From assembly GCA_017303635.1 (NCBI GenBank), contig JAFLCG010000008.1, forward strand, positions 1 through 64,000: a DNA stretch of 64,000 nt. Reading direction: 5' to 3'. The position numbers were made by a program, and so were the translations under genes. The stretch's first letter is position 1, and each line of letters starts with the position of its first letter. The stretch comes from Anaerolineae bacterium. Its GTDB lineage: Bacteria > Chloroflexota > Anaerolineae > Aggregatilineales > Phototrophicaceae. The notes beneath the pieces are model-generated. The model saw only the letters and a list, made by a program, of their open reading frames with translations. It searched no databases and was not told where the DNA came from. Shown here one piece after another: positions 32,175 through 40,533 of the stretch.

Positions 32175-35100
32175 TCATCCACTCTGATCCGCCAACTGTA
32201 CTCGGACAATGGAGATAATATCGTCTATCGTGCGGTGGCGGTTACGTTGATGAATTTCAGCGCGAATTTCTTCACTCAGTTGTTGTTGATTGTCCGCGAA
32301 GATTTGTTCAACTTGGGCAAAGTCGCTTTGTGAGGTTTGCGGGTCATGCTTTAAGAAATCATAGATTGCGTAACCTTCATGCAAATTGCCTTCTTCGGCA
32401 ATTCCCGCCGATACCATGATCAGGATCGCATTGATGGCCCAGCGGATGTTGCCCGCGATTACCATATCAAGGGCTTCAGAAATCAACAACTTGCCCGACC
32501 GATAATCCTGACGCATCCGTTTGATTTCGCTTAAGTTCATCAAGTTGCGAATGATCCCGTTTGACCACTTGATTTTGCGCGAGATGTCCAGCGCTTCGGC
32601 AATCAATGGCTCGGCTTCATCAAGACGATTTTGAATGAGCGGAATCATCGAACAATCACCTAAAGCATTCGCCAAAACATTCGGCGAACCCAAAGCACGG
32701 GCCAAACTCAGTTCGCGGTCAAACTGTGTGGTTGCCAGATCTAACTGTTGCAGGTTGAAGTAAGTCATGCCGAGATTGCTCAGGGTAAAGATGGCTTGTT
32801 CAAAGCTGCCTAAGCGGTCAAAGGTGCTTAAAGCATGGGTAAATCCATCTATGGCAGCTTCAAATTGACCCATATGCATATCCATTAAGGCAATTTCGTA
32901 GCGGCTGTTGCCGATCATTATTTCATCCTGTAAAGCCTGTGCCAGCTCGAGGACGCGCAGCAAAGTCACTTTGCTATCCGCATAGTTGCCTTGTAATCCC
33001 TGAACCCGCGCACAATTACGCAAGGTCATCACCATCATTAGTCGATCCTGGAGTTCCTCGGCCAGTTGGGCAGCCTCCTTATAATGCTGTTCGGCCAGGT
33101 CAATTTTCCCCTGCCAACGATCATTGTTGCCTGTTTCATTAAGCACGTATAAACGAATGCTGCGATCATTTAGCAACGCAGCCATAGCCAGTGCTTCCTC
33201 TAATAGTTGCGAAGAACGGTCAACATCACCGGCTTCGCGCAGCGCATTTGCCAGTTTCACCAACAATTGCCCACGGCGTATATGAGGTATGTCTTTGGGC
33301 AACGGCTGCAAGGCGCGTTCAAAGAACTGGACGGCGCTGGCATAGGCGCTGGAATTGGCAGCGTGTATGCCTGCCACTTCGGCATATTGCCCGGCTTTTT
33401 CAATCTCGCCCGCTGCGAACCAATAATGCGACAGGCGCGGTGCCTGGTTAGCATCTGCCGGATATGCTTGTTCGATGGCTTCAGCTAAAGTGCGGTAGAG
33501 CATTGAATGGGGTTCCGCAGCAATTATGCTTTGGAGATGCTCGCGCAATTTATCATGGCTGAAACGCCAATTTTCATCCTGAATGTCCAAAATGCCGACA
33601 TCACTGCACTGAGTCAGCCATGTTTCTAAGGTTTGCTCACTCAGCCCGGCGTGACCCTGCTCAACTAATGCTTTGAGGACGGGCAATTCGAGTTGTCGCC
33701 CAAGCAAGGTTGCAAAGCGGAGGAGTTTACCCCCCCATTCTGGTACGCGATCCAATCGCCGCCGAATGAGCTTTTCGATGCCACCGGCGAAAATGGTGCG
33801 GGGGAGCGTCATCTGACTGATGTCGTCCAGTCGCCCTGCGGCCTCCGCCAGCGCACGAACGACTTCCACCATGAAGAAGGTGTTGCCCTCGGTCTCCTGC
33901 TGCAAGCGCTCGATAATGACCGGGTCGCGCCCGCCTTCGCCCAGCATCCCTGCGCTTAACTCTGCCACTTCGGCGGTGCTCAGGCGCATCAGTGACAGCG
34001 GTATCATCCCCGGTAACTTGTCTGGCAGATCAGGGCGTTCATCGCTGCGGTAGTTGGCGACCATCAACAGTGGCAGATCAGCCAGTAGTGGCGTCAAGCG
34101 CTTGAGGGGTTCCAGGCTTTCTTCGCACCACTGCAAATCTTCCAGCAACAAAACCATGGGATGTGGCTGACGTCTGATGACATCTAATATGGTCTGTACC
34201 AGGCGCTGCTGGCCGGCCTCACCGGGGAGTTCCGGGGCATCCGGGATGTCGCGTTCGAGCAGACTGCCGATGTCCGCTACAATCGGTTTCAGCACGCTCG
34301 CTTCCAGGTCACTCAGTTCGACCGAGAGCACCAACCGACGCAGGGGTTCGCGCCAGAGTTGGTAGGGCAGACCGCCGCCTTCGACCGCCTGGCCTCGTAC
34401 GACCAGTGCACCATCAACCAGGGCCTGTGTCCGCAGCTCATCCAGCAGACGGGACTTGCCGACCCCGCTCTCACCACCCACCAACCAGGCACTGCCTTTG
34501 CTGTTCATTGCTTCCTGGAGCGCATCTTTGAGCTGGTGAAGTTCCTGCTGCCGCCCCACAAACTCCGCGGACTGAATGAAACTCTCTCGTAAGGCGACGG
34601 TTTCTGAAGGCGGTAGCTGACCGACGGCCTGTGATAAGGCGATCATGGCCTCGGTTGCGTTGGTATATCGGTCAGCGGGTGTCTTCGCCAATAACCGGCC
34701 GATCACATCCTTCAGCGCCGCATCAATCGGGAGAGGGTTCACATCTGCAAGCTGAGTGGTAACGGCCTCGATCAAGTTCTCCAATCCATCATCGCTGTCG
34801 AAGGGGAGAGTAAGTGCGAACAGTTGATAAGCCATCACGCCCACCGCATACAGGTCGCTGCTGAAGCTGGCAGATTGTCCATTCAGCACTTCCGGGGCCA
34901 TGTAGTGCAGTGTGCCCGCTGGTGTGTCCTCTGTCTGTTGACTTCTGCTTACGGCTAAGCCGAAGTCAAGGACTTTGGCTTGGCCGCCCACTACCAGCAC
35001 ATTGTCCGGTTTCAGATCCCGGTGGATCACACCACGTCGGTGCAGATATGCCAGCGCCTGTAAGACCTGAATGATGAGGTTGATCTTCTCAGAGACGGTC

Positions 35101-35447
35101 AGGTTTGAGCCATAGTCCAACAGATTAGTGGGTTGGCTCAACAGTTCCATGGTGTAATACGGTTGGCGATGGGTGTCAAAACCGTAATCCAGCACACTGA
35201 TGATATGGGGATGGCGCAATGAAGCCAGCGTCTTGAACTCTTCAGCCAGGGCCATCCACAGTCCAGTGGTCGCGCCCAGACTCGCCCGTGACATGAATTC
35301 GAGGAACTCCAGCGGGATGTTGACCTGCTTGAGCGCCACCTCGGTCCCATTGAGGCGGTCATAGGCGCGGTAGACAGCACCCATCCCACCCTCACCAAGC
35401 TGCTCACCCAGGCGATAACGATACCCAATCTTCCCGACAGCATTCAT
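32175..35447 (-). CDS. Hanks-type Ser/Thr kinase fused to AAA ATPase and TPR repeats
   Basis: 1090 residues. The kinase domain (about 8-270) has the Gly loop GEGGMGAVYRAYD, catalytic Lys K40 (VALKQV), the HRD loop VIHRDLKPDNVL, DFGLAVS, and the APE motif in HYMAPEVL. A predicted AAA/STAND-type ATPase (about 293-600) has FVGRQQELHQL, Walker A GGESGVGKSR near 325, Walker B VLLLEDLQW and an NYRS sensor. TPR-like repeats fill about 700-1010 (ALSTFDRLGSFEQAIFTLSN, GDVDRSSQLLEEALAMAA). This is the layout of large transcriptional or signalling hubs such as PknK. No transmembrane or DNA-binding domain is seen. By eye, the TPR half is more A+T-rich than the kinase half. The small gene at 35452 lies just upstream. 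Confidence 0.92.
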   Translation of the reverse strand: MNAVGKIGYRYRLGEQLGEGGMGAVYRAYDRLNGTEVALKQVNIPLEFLEFMSRASLGATTGLWMALAEEFKTLASLRHPHIISVLDYGFDTHRQPYYTMELLSQPTNLLDYGSNLTVSEKINLIIQVLQALAYLHRRGVIHRDLKPDNVLVVGGQAKVLDFGLAVSRSQQTEDTPAGTLHYMAPEVLNGQSASFSSDLYAVGVMAYQLFALTLPFDSDDGLENLIEAVTTQLADVNPLPIDAALKDVIGRLLAKTPADRYTNATEAMIALSQAVGQLPPSETVALRESFIQSAEFVGRQQELHQLKDALQEAMNSKGSAWLVGGESGVGKSRLLDELRTQALVDGALVVRGQAVEGGGLPYQLWREPLRRLVLSVELSDLEASVLKPIVADIGSLLERDIPDAPELPGEAGQQRLVQTILDVIRRQPHPMVLLLEDLQWCEESLEPLKRLTPLLADLPLLMVANYRSDERPDLPDKLPGMIPLSLMRLSTAEVAELSAGMLGEGGRDPVIIERLQQETEGNTFFMVEVVRALAEAAGRLDDISQMTLPRTIFAGGIEKLIRRRLDRVPEWGGKLLRFATLLGRQLELPVLKALVEQGHAGLSEQTLETWLTQCSDVGILDIQDENWRFSHDKLREHLQSIIAAEPHSMLYRTLAEAIEQAYPADANQAPRLSHYWFAAGEIEKAGQYAEVAGIHAANSSAYASAVQFFERALQPLPKDIPHIRRGQLLVKLANALREAGDVDRSSQLLEEALAMAALLNDRSIRLYVLNETGNNDRWQGKIDLAEQHYKEAAQLAEELQDRLMMVMTLRNCARVQGLQGNYADSKVTLLRVLELAQALQDEIMIGNSRYEIALMDMHMGQFEAAIDGFTHALSTFDRLGSFEQAIFTLSNLGMTYFNLQQLDLATTQFDRELSLARALGSPNVLANALGDCSMIPLIQNRLDEAEPLIAEALDISRKIKWSNGIIRNLMNLSEIKRMRQDYRSGKLLISEALDMVIAGNIRWAINAILIMVSAGIAEEGNLHEGYAIYDFLKHDPQTSQSDFAQVEQIFADNQQQLSEEIRAEIHQRNRHRTIDDIISIVRVQLADQSG

Positions 35448-35451
35448 ACCC

Positions 35452-35910
35452 CTACTCCCGAGTGTCTTTGAGAAACCTGTTTACCCATTCAAGGGCTGCG
35501 TCGACGTTATCAAATATTCGGCTTTCGACCTGCTCGTGATCCGCGTTCGAACTCCGACCGCGTTTCATCGTCATCTGACCGGAGAGTGCAGTAGAGACAA
35601 CCACCGCCAAACGAACGCGCTGCGCTGGATGCGCCTTCATCCATTCACGGAAGCGGAGTTGGCTATTGGGGGTCAACCAAGGATCCAGAATATTGTTGCT
35701 GGTCAGCAGCAGCAACTGCATACTCATGCCACTGTTCGACATATCATGGATGGCGATGTAGTCGGCACCTTCTGGCCACTGTTCCAAGGAATCGGCGACG
35801 GCTTTGCTCCATTCGATCAGGTTTGCTGGTCCAAGGGATTTGACTGTATAAACGGCTGCTCGTCGGTCTTGAAGCCAGTTTCGTTCAACCCCTCTGCATA
35901 CAATTTCCAT
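35452..35910 (-). CDS. small protein of unknown function, kinase operon
   Basis: 152 residues from ATG 35910 with GGGGGCAGACTT before it; an open frame continues to 35940 without a site. It lies 4 bp upstream of the Ser/Thr kinase gene on the same strand. The sequence has alternating strands and helices (AVYTVKSLGPANLIEW, then EGADYIAIHDMSNSGM, RVRLAVVVSTAL, and the helix NVDAALEWVNRFLK), a pattern seen in STAS/SpoIIAA-like proteins, but that resemblance is weak. It could be a substrate or regulator of the kinase encoded next to it. Confidence 0.7.
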   Translation of the reverse strand: MEIVCRGVERNWLQDRRAAVYTVKSLGPANLIEWSKAVADSLEQWPEGADYIAIHDMSNSGMSMQLLLLTSNNILDPWLTPNSQLRFREWMKAHPAQRVRLAVVVSTALSGQMTMKRGRSSNADHEQVESRIFDNVDAALEWVNRFLKDTRE

Positions 35911-36150
35911 AAGTCTGCCCCCAGGAAAATTGGACTGCAATGCATGACATATTCAGTATAGGAGTGAACAGAGGAACCGATCATTGATGTCGCAGGCAAG
36001 GAAGTTCGATATACAAGCCCGGTAAAATCTTCAAGTGGACTTTCGTCCGCTTACTCATCAGCTTCTCATGCCGTAAAGAGATTCAAACTCCTATACTGGG
36101 GGTGATCGGTTTTCGACCGATTCCTATCTACTTCGAGAGGGAGAAAATCT

Positions 36151-37359: not shown

Positions 37360-38145
37360 ATGACCGCTGCATTCCCCCTGCAAGAAACTGCTATCACACC
37401 TGGTTTTGTGCGTGATTTGCCTTTCCAGCATATAACGGCGGATACATTTCCTACCATTCGCCCGATCCATTGGTTGACTTCCCATTTTGCTGTCGGCGGG
37501 TGGAGCCCTCTACAACGCTTAAGCGGGATGCTGACTGCACATATGACGCGCATTGCCCCGCAGAACGGCTTCACCTGGCACCCGCATCGTGGACTCGAGA
37601 TTTATACCTGGGTGATTGAGGGGCAACTGTATCATGAAGATACAACGGGCGGGAAAGGTGTGATCAAAACCGGGGAAATTCAGCGTATGTTTTCCGGTGA
37701 CTGGATCGAACATCAGGAACTCAATCCCTGGGATGAACCCGCTCGCGTTATTCAAATCTGGTTCATCGCGGATCGACATCATCAGGGTTTACCTGCCCAC
37801 TATCAGCAGGCGGGTTCGGATGAACTCCCGGCGCGGCGGGTGGGCGATGCAACCGTGTGGAACCTGATTGGGGATGGTTCACCGCTGGAGCAACATATGA
37901 AAGGTCGACTGAGTGCGATGACGGTTGATCCGAATGGTACGACGAGGCTGGAGGCTCCGCACCCTGGTGAAAGCCTGTTCTGGTATGTGACCGACGGCAG
38001 TGGAAATGCCCTCCATCAGGGACGGCAGATGTCGCTCGGACAGTATGATGTCGCACTTGCTCGACCGGATATGGAGCCAACCGAGATTACCGCAGGCGAT
38101 CAACCGCTGCACGCCCTTAGTTTCTATCTGCCCACGTTTCTATAG
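37360..38145 (+). CDS. pirin-family cupin protein
   Basis: 261 residues. It has the two-cupin layout of pirins. The first cupin contains FTWHPHRGLEIYTWVIEGQL with metal-binding His in HPHRG, then HEDTTGGKGVIKTGEIQRM, and SGDWIEHQELNPW; the second covers about 150-255 (SLFWYVTDGSGNAL, QPLHALSFYLP). Pirins bind iron, and some have quercetinase activity; function here is unknown. No ribosome-binding site stronger than AGGCGTAACC lies before the ATG. It converges with the E2-like gene, only 1 bp apart. Confidence 0.9.
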   Translation: MTAAFPLQETAITPGFVRDLPFQHITADTFPTIRPIHWLTSHFAVGGWSPLQRLSGMLTAHMTRIAPQNGFTWHPHRGLEIYTWVIEGQLYHEDTTGGKGVIKTGEIQRMFSGDWIEHQELNPWDEPARVIQIWFIADRHHQGLPAHYQQAGSDELPARRVGDATVWNLIGDGSPLEQHMKGRLSAMTVDPNGTTRLEAPHPGESLFWYVTDGSGNALHQGRQMSLGQYDVALARPDMEPTEITAGDQPLHALSFYLPTFL

Positions 38146-38146
38146 C

Positions 38147-38617
38147 TCATACCCGTCGACGCGGCGGCAGCGGCGTATTGGGGTCAACGCGCTCTTCGAT
38201 GCCGGGCCAGTCATTGGTCGCCCGCCAGGTATAGTAGGCGTAAATCCACTGTACGGCCCAGGCGGTGACGGTCACGGCGGTGGATTTACCGGGGTTCCAA
38301 CCGTACTGTTCCCCATCTTTGGGATTAAACAGGCACAACTGCCCATCTTCATATTGATGTTTTTCGCTGTAGATACGCGGCTTCAGGCAGTAGGCTTCTG
38401 CCGGGCGGTTGGGATACTCGTTGGGATAAACAATCTTCAGCCGGTGGACCGGATCTTCCAGCGTCGCCAGATTGATTTCGACATCGCCATCCCAGTACAA
38501 GACGCCCCCACTGGGCGGCACGACCAGCTTGAATGTATTGCCAAAGGTGGCGCGCATGGCTTCCACCTCTAAACGCAGGCGTGGCGAGACGTTGTTACGT
38601 GTTCCCCACCAGTTCAT
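38147..38617 (-). CDS. stand-alone ubiquitin-conjugating-enzyme-like (E2-fold) protein
   Basis: 156 residues from ATG 38617, which has AGGAG 10 bases upstream; the longer frame to 38821 would run through the neighbouring glycosyltransferase gene. The UBC fold is recognisable: LYWDGDVEINL, then HRLKIVYPNEYPNRPAEAYC (as YPxxYPxxPP in eukaryotic E2s), then RIYSEKHQYEDGQLCLFN with the HxxxxDGxLCL pattern around the candidate catalytic C95, then YGWNPGKST (the W-x-P turn) and WAVQWIYAYYTWRATNDWPG helices. E2 enzymes carry ubiquitin or a ubiquitin-like modifier on this Cys. No E1-like, JAB-type peptidase or modifier gene is seen in the window. It is downstream of a glycosyltransferase gene on the same strand. 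Confidence 0.82.
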   Translation of the reverse strand: MNWWGTRNNVSPRLRLEVEAMRATFGNTFKLVVPPSGGVLYWDGDVEINLATLEDPVHRLKIVYPNEYPNRPAEAYCLKPRIYSEKHQYEDGQLCLFNPKDGEQYGWNPGKSTAVTVTAWAVQWIYAYYTWRATNDWPGIEERVDPNTPLPPRRRV

Positions 38618-38687: not shown

Positions 38688-39851
38688 CTACCCGAAAATG
38701 GGGGTTCCCAGGAGTTGTTCGTACACACGCACAGTTGCGGCAGCCACTTGAGCGTGTGTGAAATGTGCCAGCACCCGCGCCCGACCCGCCTGACCCAAGC
38801 GCGCTCGTTCCGCCGGGTCATCCCGTAAGCGGCGCAGGGCGGCTGTCAGCGAGTCTATGTCGCCTTCGGGGACGATCATGCCCGCGCTGCCCATGACATC
38901 CGGGATGGCACCACTATCCGAGCCGATCACCGGCAGCCCGCTGGCCATCGCCTCGGTGATGACGCGCCCGAACTGCTCTTTCCAGTTCAAGCGGGTCAGC
39001 GAAGGAATCGCCAGCACATCCATTTTTTGATACTGCATGGGCATCCCGGCGGATTCCACCCATTCGATCCGATCCAGACGATCCCCAATCCCTAACTGCT
39101 GCGCCAGCGCCTCCAGGGCATTCCAGTAGGGGCCGCTGCCGACCAATCGCAAGCGCCATTCGCCGTCCAGTCGAGCTGCTGCCCTTAGCAGCAAATGGAT
39201 GCCCTTTTCCTCGACCAGACGGCCTACATAGCCAATCGTGAATACCCTCGCCCTCTCTTCCAAATCCGCTGGAGAGAGGGGATTCAGAACAGGAGCAAAC
39301 AAGTCAGGGTCAACGCCAAACTGAGGGATGACAGTCATTGGCCCCGCATAGCCTTTGGCTCGCCAGACATGAGCGGCACTTTGAGTCCCCGCCAGCACAT
39401 GATCAACCTGACTCAGCGTCCAGCCTTCGCCCCATGAAAAAGGCGATGGATACACCCGGCGAATATTCTGCCAGCTAAAGATCAGCGTCTTCGCGCCAAT
39501 TTTCCGGGCAATCCGCAGGGCCTGCCAGGTAGCGAGGTTGTAGGGTTCTTCATCAATGTGGATGATCTGCGGCTGAAAGTCCTCGATTCGCTTTGCCAGA
39601 CCCGGATACCAGTGCAGATGAAAGTTGCCGTTCAACGCAATGGGCACTGTCTCCAACCGATAGCCGGTGGTATAGACTCGCTCCAGGTTGGTTTCCCCGC
39701 GCTCATCTTTCCATGACGGTGGTGTGAGCGCCAGCAGGTCAATTCCCAGCCGAGCCATTTCCTCCAGCTTGCGCTGGTAGATGCCAACCACTAAGGCTTT
39801 TGACAACAGCAAAACGCGAGGGCGTGATTTCGACGCATGGATATTGGACAC
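38688..39851 (-). CDS. family 4 glycosyltransferase
   Basis: 387 residues starting at GTG 39851, chosen because TTGAGGG (overlapping the stop of the upstream gene) is 4-5 bases before it. It shows a GT-B layout: N-terminal ARPRVLLLSKALV-type strand, LAKRIEDFQPQIIHIDEEPY, and a C-terminal domain with FTIGYVGRLVEEKGIHLLL, the conserved E-x7-E type motif FGRVITEAMASGLPVIGSDS, and GSAGMIVPEGD. It should transfer a sugar from a nucleotide donor. A short palindrome at 39251-39280 lies in the linker between domains. It is the middle gene of a three-gene reverse-strand cluster. Confidence 0.93.
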   Translation of the reverse strand: MSNIHASKSRPRVLLLSKALVVGIYQRKLEEMARLGIDLLALTPPSWKDERGETNLERVYTTGYRLETVPIALNGNFHLHWYPGLAKRIEDFQPQIIHIDEEPYNLATWQALRIARKIGAKTLIFSWQNIRRVYPSPFSWGEGWTLSQVDHVLAGTQSAAHVWRAKGYAGPMTVIPQFGVDPDLFAPVLNPLSPADLEERARVFTIGYVGRLVEEKGIHLLLRAAARLDGEWRLRLVGSGPYWNALEALAQQLGIGDRLDRIEWVESAGMPMQYQKMDVLAIPSLTRLNWKEQFGRVITEAMASGLPVIGSDSGAIPDVMGSAGMIVPEGDIDSLTAALRRLRDDPAERARLGQAGRARVLAHFTHAQVAAATVRVYEQLLGTPIFG

Positions 39852-39858
39852 GTCGCCC

Positions 39859-40533
39859 TCAATCGATCCCAGCGGATTTGGCTGCCTGGGCGAAGGCCCG
39901 CACTTTGGCGATGTCCTTGCGGAAGCCACCTGCAGCCAGCGGTTGGTTGGTATGGGTCAACGAATCGACGCCCCAGGGACGCACCATCCGGATGGAATCT
40001 ACGACGTTGTCCGGGGAAAGCCCTCCCGCCAAAATTACGGGCACCCGCACCGCCTCGACAATCGCCCGGCTGATGGACCAGTCATGGGTTTTGCCAGATG
40101 CGCCGATCCCGGCAATATCGGGTGCTTGTGTATCGAGGATGAGATATTCACAAAGTGACTCGTAAGCCCTGGCTTCCATGATGGCATCCCGTCCTGCGAC
40201 CGAAATGGCTTGCATGATGGGCAGACCTGGAAAGTGCAGCCGCAGTTCGGCCACATCTTCAGGGCCGAAGGTTCCTGTCAGGGGGCACAGGTGGAGCACA
40301 TCGGGCCTGACCGCTTCCACCATCTCCACAATAGGCGGCAGGGTCGTTTCGACCGTCAGGGCAACCCGTATGGCTTTGCCCGCTGTTGCCTGCATGATCG
40401 CCTGGGTGGTTGGAATATCAATCTCACCGGGAAGGCCACGCGCCGAGGGGGTCAGGCCAATATGGTCAGCCCCGGCCTCGATGACGGCCAGGGCTTCTTC
40501 AGGGGTTTGCATGGTATAGAACTGCACAATCAT
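39859..40533 (-). CDS. TrpF-like (phosphoribosylanthranilate isomerase-type) TIM barrel
   Basis: 224 residues. The fold shows beta-alpha units: MIVQFYTMQTPEEALAVIEAG, KAIRVALTVET, VEAVRPDVLHLCPLTG, LPIMQAISVAGRD, EYLILDTQAPDIAGIGASGK, RVPVILAGGLSPDNVVDSIR and PWGVDSLTHTN. The LAGGLSPDNV phosphate-binding loop is as in TrpF, but the classic catalytic Cys near the N terminus (as in KICG) is not present, the equivalent place reading VQFYT. It therefore may not act in tryptophan synthesis. No other trp gene is near. The downstream glycosyltransferase starts 7 bp after the stop. Confidence 0.8.
   Translation of the reverse strand: MIVQFYTMQTPEEALAVIEAGADHIGLTPSARGLPGEIDIPTTQAIMQATAGKAIRVALTVETTLPPIVEMVEAVRPDVLHLCPLTGTFGPEDVAELRLHFPGLPIMQAISVAGRDAIMEARAYESLCEYLILDTQAPDIAGIGASGKTHDWSISRAIVEAVRVPVILAGGLSPDNVVDSIRMVRPWGVDSLTHTNQPLAAGGFRKDIAKVRAFAQAAKSAGID

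Follow-up and report, generated by a model that had tools for sequence, protein, structure and literature searches.

A stand-alone E2-like gene of an Anaerolineae bacterium as the probable E2 of an E1-E2-JAB conjugation system kept across the Aggregatilineales

The genome of an Anaerolineae bacterium (GenBank GCA_017303635.1) carries, in the first 64,000 nucleotides of contig JAFLCG010000008.1 (hereafter the window), a gene for an E2 (UBC)-like protein with no visible conjugation partner beside it, which raises the question of whether this protein acts alone or belongs to a pathway encoded elsewhere. The coordinates assigned to the gene in a preliminary description of the locus are correct and its coding strand is the minus one (Table 1); a plus-strand reading of 38147-38617 contains a stop and was rejected as a gene. 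The encoded protein (MNWWGTRNN...YPNEYPNRP...KHQYEDGQLCLFNPKD...YGWNP...WAVQWIYAYYTWRATNDWPGIEE) displays the UBC landmarks, with H87 and C95, as they had been described. Profile searches report hits with the PADLOC E2 families (E down to 1.7e-14), a match that indicates homology of the domain and not of the CBASS system, and in the PDB with eukaryotic E2s (E to 3.5e-6) and with the Serratia CBASS E2 (0.0016). Pfam UQ_con scores 13.6 bits for a cut-off of 27, so that, judged by its sequence, the protein is not a standard annotated E2; the Pfam RWD family falls below its cut-off as well, and the HPN tripeptide is absent, H87 being followed by QY and not by PN. The AlphaFold2 model (mean pLDDT 74.5) adopts a UBC topology composed of a helix (residues 12-25), four strands (29-32, 41-47, 57-63, and 74-79) and a second helix (113-134), in which the α1 helix, the four-stranded meander, and the C-terminal helix of the UBC/E2 fold are all present, while the active-site loop has a pLDDT below 60 and is hence uncertain. 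The top Foldseek match of this model is 8hsb_B, from a CdnG-E2 complex (E 9.8e-5), VIA-align superposes it on the Serratia CdnG-E2 with a Z-score of 9.8 (rmsd 3.0, 131 residues), and the matches returned by both programs are E2s. The candidate catalytic residue C95, located after strand 4, does not vary in alignments A1, A2, or A3; across a diverse E2 alignment, this residue, H87, and about 50 further positions are invariant. Profiles, model, and structural comparisons all agree, well beyond what chance would give, on the UBC fold that had been surmised, and on these grounds of sequence and model the window protein is predicted to be a genuine E2-fold protein with an intact candidate catalytic cysteine.

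Table 1. Features of the window at the E2 locus
Feature	Coordinates	Strand	Remark
E2/UBC-like protein, 156 aa	38147..38617	minus	H87 codon 38357-38359; C95 codon 38333-38335
Glycosyltransferase, upstream of E2	38688..39929	minus	not kept beside E2 in relatives
TrpF (PRA isomerase)-like barrel	39859..40533	minus	not kept beside E2 in relatives
Pirin-like cupin, convergent with E2	37360..38145	plus	occupies the place of the relatives' JAB gene (on the E2 strand there)

The genes upstream of the E2 gene correspond to, or are consistent with, the glycosyltransferase and TrpF-like barrel of the preliminary description. Comparison of gene order shows that this neighborhood is not kept in relatives; the two genes are therefore uninformative on the function of the E2, and a functional link with them was rejected. 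In the relatives, a JAB gene directly follows the E2 gene on the same strand in all 80 named loci, and a gene for an E1-like ThiF protein comes next in 78 of them, the remaining two loci ending soon after. The usual order is E2, JAB, and E1-like ThiF, then often a small protein designated c5, a PCMT-like methyltransferase, and a NUDIX hydrolase, and the E2 gene also comes first in the other E2 loci examined beyond these 80. In the genome of the window, the JAB and E1-like ThiF genes lie together with c5 at positions 420582-422931 of contig C12, away from the E2 gene, and the PCMT-like gene completes the series JAB, E1, c5, PCMT up to position 424245. The proposal that the E2 might be an orphan is thereby refuted, whereas the guess that its partners are encoded in trans is supported by the JAB, E1, and c5 genes of C12. 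Among the genomes examined, E2 lies apart from JAB-E1 only in that of the window. Because neither flank is kept in relatives beyond the operon itself, a rearrangement probably parted E2 from JAB-E1-c5. Each of the two sites lies deep within a long contig, an argument against a simple artefact of contig ends, although a misassembly may still underlie the split. Downstream of E2, positions 32175-35940 of the window encode a 1090-residue Ser/Thr kinase-AAA-TPR protein beside a small SpoIIAA-like protein.

Regarding its distribution, orthologues of the E2 are found in 52 out of 61 relatives (53-90% identity), two of the weakest matches being short or paralogous. Of the 154 Aggregatilineales (Anaerolineae) genomes in an order-wide scan, 134 have it as a single copy, and orthologues from the same genus share 81-90% identity with the window E2 despite the split of the operon. 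The named E2 records are MAGs of Anaerolineae and Aggregatilineales. The E2 gene is thus apparently a core gene, vertically kept through most of the order.

The two partners encoded next to E2 in relatives have recognizable folds. The predicted structure of the JAB protein exhibits a clear MPN fold, with Z-scores of about 13 to chains of the BRCC36 complex, Rpn11, and CsRpn11 (13.4 for 6gvw_A, from the BRCA1-A complex, and 13.1 for 6fju_A, the Rpn11 homologue CsRpn11 of Caldiarchaeum), and the protein is matched by the JAB profile of PADLOC. Residues E36, H122, S132, and D135 are invariant. The second histidine of the motif is a glutamine in 85 of 88 matched proteins (HKQ or HRQ) and a histidine in three divergent ones (HKH); because it is mostly glutamine, zinc binding and activity of the JAB protein are uncertain. 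Its C-terminus comprises, in the model, a helix (residues 225-238), four strands, and a last helix (328-339), an order of elements that suggests a UBC/RWD-like domain; hhalign against the E2 yields a probability of 3.9% (E 0.011), and the list of structural matches spans the JAB part only. The E1-like partner is assigned a ThiF domain (PF00899, 119.5 bits) by Pfam, is matched by the PADLOC E1-E2 profile (E to 1.4e-28), and its profile reports MccB, ThiF, MoeB, and UBA5 in the PDB. MccB is relevant here because it adenylates the C-terminus of a peptide devoid of the ubiquitin fold. The other ThiF proteins of the window's genome were considered and rejected: the match of L001 is to a MoeB-like protein with a rhodanese domain, and L003 (G000:C21) and L004 (G000:C1) lie beside a gene that we take to resemble PRTRC system protein B, and probably belong to a separate system. 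The nucleotide-binding glycine motif of the E1-like partner and two CxxC pairs are invariant or nearly so. These pairs hold its only nearly invariant cysteines, one further cysteine occurring in 56 out of 65 sequences, and no separate catalytic cysteine is evident in the E1 alignment. In MoeB and ThiF, the CxxC cysteines are zinc ligands. In E. coli Cap2, a CxxC was presumed to be the E1 site and mutated (PMC10097602).

The small protein c5 ranges in length from about 60 to 120 residues; its disordered, variable, and proline-rich N-terminus precedes a near-invariant part of 55 residues ending in ...GVSLRKRRAWY, after which come 0 to 29 unconserved residues. In the c5 alignment, the residue following AWY varies and there is no conserved C-terminal glycine. 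Pfam analysis of c5 returns a single weak hit, DUF4129, in one member. All 14 E2-containing genomes tested possess c5, which in seven is encoded apart from the E2-JAB-E1 operon, and the eight E2-less genomes tested from the order yield no significant match to it. Across the order (154 genomes), 129 genomes have both E2 and c5, five E2 only, six c5 only, and 14 neither, which makes the two agree in 143 genomes, many of the single absences falling in fragmented MAGs. When c5 is unlinked from the operon, the PCMT-like and NUDIX genes travel with it; at L233, L234, L235, L237, L238, and L098, a PCMT-like methyltransferase gene is found after c5, often with a NUDIX hydrolase gene, even far from E1/E2. 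Another companion, c4, is a membrane-anchored and probably strand-rich protein encoded in tandem pairs. In several further families of this order the pair adjoins E2, while in the family of the window's genome it is located elsewhere (G000:C2:135788-137403). Like c5, both the c4 pair and JAB are present in 14 of 14 genomes with E2 and in none of the eight without, the co-occurrence of E2, c5, c4, and JAB being drawn from related genomes and hence not fully independent evidence. c5 and the c4 pair share the distribution of E2 even when they are encoded elsewhere. Of note, the C-terminal tail of the E1-like protein (SLxDL; L002:1471-2415) resembles those of the c4 membrane proteins (SLEELL; alignment A8), perhaps as a common docking site.

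The C-terminal motif of c5, GRVRT.RR.....G.SLRKRRAWY, also recurs in polymorphic-toxin-like proteins of E2-containing genomes, and in apparent phage proteins, the names of all of them resting on a reading of the sequences and of their neighbors. In L243 (3937-5070), it sits inside an RHS-type toxin, at the point where the RHS part meets the C-terminal domain; in L245 (4434-5075), it belongs to a toxin-like cassette beside RHS sequence; and in L248, on the minus strand, it is found within a frame of 2600 residues. In three genomes, apparent prophage scaffold proteins begin with it (L244:4201-4917; L246:3111-3797 and L247:4031-4738, both on the minus strand), and so does an apparent capsid protein in one of the three (L247:2594-3577, minus strand). 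The toxin copies have clade-specific letters in common with the c5 proteins of the clade to which they belong. As three of the motif-bearing sequences had already entered the alignment from which the order-wide scan was made, the independent finds are L246, L247, and L248 only, with E-values of 1e-4 to 4e-3 per genome that are individually weak over 154 genomes. The same scan reports no match to the motif below E 0.08 in the genomes of the three E2-less families. Among the viral contigs of IMG/VR, no match to the motif was confirmed, and the L247 capsid protein used as a query returned none. If one ventures a guess, the sites bearing the motif may share a theme, as places where proteins are cut or recognized.

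We favor, with a probability of roughly 0.6, the reading that the window gene encodes the E2 of a lineage-wide conjugation system of the Aggregatilineales, of which c5 is the likeliest client, and that it has been split from JAB-E1-c5 in this genome. The E1-like protein would adenylate the C-terminus of the client, the E2 would take it over as a thioester on C95 and attach it to a target through an amine, and the JAB protein would trim the client or reverse the linkage, while the c4 pair may hold this machinery at the membrane. Such a pathway would work like the Cap2/Cap3 pair of CBASS, but as a core function of the cell and without a CD-NTase. Two observations make c5 the most likely client: its co-inheritance holds even where the genes are unlinked, and 0 to 29 unconserved residues come after the ...RRAWY that closes its conserved part, as in a precursor that is processed. 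A non-ubiquitin client is documented in a related pathway, in which the cGAS/CD-NTase, with a C-terminal Gly or Ala, is the client of Cap2 (PMC10097602). Conjugation of cGAS was lost when its C-terminal glycine was replaced with Ser, Val, Arg, or Trp (PMC10097602); c5 has no conserved C-terminal glycine, and this counts against c5 as the client. In a bolder version, c5, with its disordered N-terminus and no recognized ubiquitin fold, would itself serve the core E1/E2/JAB pathway as modifier (or as an obligate client), and RRAWY would be a processing or recognition signal borrowed by polymorphic toxins and resident phages; this version is speculative and seems to us rather doubtful.

The main rival to c5 as the client is a modifier encoded in trans. 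The same E1-E2-JAB pathway would then act on a beta-grasp protein from another locus, which could be MoaD/ThiS-like, YukD-like, or a small UBL that escapes recognition, and c5 would be a substrate, an adaptor, or an E3-like factor. Beta-grasp UBLs are the substrates of E1, E2, and JAB proteins in related bacterial systems (PMC11354881; PMC1779556), the window's genome possesses other ThiF proteins, and the c5 C-terminus is not Gly-ended, but no ubiquitin-like gene was recognized at the operon in any relative examined; we consider this alternative possible, if on the unlikely side. YukD was tried as the missing modifier and rejected, as its best match in the window's genome is below the cut-off (E 0.13), only two of 16 E2-containing genomes have one above it, and the scan is negative at the operon. 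An improbable alternative is that the genes form a relative of type II CBASS that serves in defense and conjugates a nucleotidyltransferase or some other sensor: the best profile matches are indeed the PADLOC E2, E1-E2, and JAB families and the closest structure to the E2 is the Serratia CdnG-E2 complex, yet no CD-NTase gene is conserved beside E2, the single-copy presence and the high identity within the genus look core, and the tree splits the core E2s, together with those of L251 and L252 from another class of Chloroflexota, from the E2s located beside CD-NTase-like genes (support 100/98, tentative in view of long branches). Lastly, that the window's E2 is a decaying or repurposed leftover of a broken operon, acting without E1, would fit its separation from JAB-E1 and the stand-alone function proposed for the E2 of short type II CBASS (a proposal cited in PMC11153139), but is very unlikely given that the protein keeps all invariant residues, with 81-90% identity to its orthologues in the genus, and that its genome retains intact JAB, E1, and c5 genes.

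How does the proposed E1-E2-JAB system with c5 compare with known ones? The type II-short CBASS E2 of Serratia marcescens (CdnG-E2, PDB 8hsb/8yjy) shares the fold of the window E2 as its closest structural match, is likewise a stand-alone protein, and has a histidine ahead of its LCL active site, as do the CD-NTase-linked E2s of L093, L094, and L053. In contrast, the present system is devoid of a CD-NTase and possesses JAB, E1, and a core single-copy E2. Other loci of the class (L053:7525-8993; L093; L094; L096; L097) contain a CD-NTase-like gene paired with a short E2, an arrangement resembling type II-short CBASS, and one genome with such a pair also carries the core E2. The Cap2 (E1-E2) and Cap3 (JAB) proteins of type II CBASS form the same working set, whereas E1 and E2 are here separate proteins and the JAB motif is mostly HKQ and not HxH; the CD-NTase and effector of that system are absent among the conserved operon neighbors and the window neighbors scanned. 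The BilABCD pathway, of the UBL type, has separate E1, E2, and JAB genes as here, but no beta-grasp UBL (BilA) is recognized among the conserved genes of the present operon, and the CEHH active-site motif described for BilB (PMC11354881) is missing from the window E2, which has no histidine in the 30 residues after C95. ThiF-like, E2-like, and JAB proteins also co-occur in the operons of Iyer et al. 2006 (PMC1779556, rows 6a-6e), with another gene architecture, c5 and c4 being conserved extras of the present system; the taxa given for these rows, as read here, do not include the Aggregatilineales. Outside the order, the closest E2s are those of L251 and L252 (71.5 and 63.4 bits), which similarly adjoin an E1-like gene and one or more JAB genes, but in clusters with more genes, a JAB with HKH, and nothing resembling c5 noted among the genes displayed. 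These larger E2-E1-JAB clusters (L251:2789-13717 and L252:3680-10673) encode JAB proteins of 800-900 residues and membrane proteins. The system is therefore best called a variant among bacterial E1-E2-JAB conjugation systems. A search of the open-access literature found no paper on this Aggregatilineales system, its absence from the literature being unproven; Burroughs et al. 2011 reportedly deals with prokaryotic RING/E2 systems.

To our knowledge, bacterial E1/E2/JAB sets are sporadic and often tied to defense. Here, such a set appears to serve most of a bacterial order as an almost universal function encoded in single copy, with no recognized ubiquitin-like gene beside it and a co-inherited small protein as candidate client. 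It would thus offer a testable case of ubiquitin-type conjugation as bacterial housekeeping, and of whether such a pathway needs a beta-grasp modifier at all.
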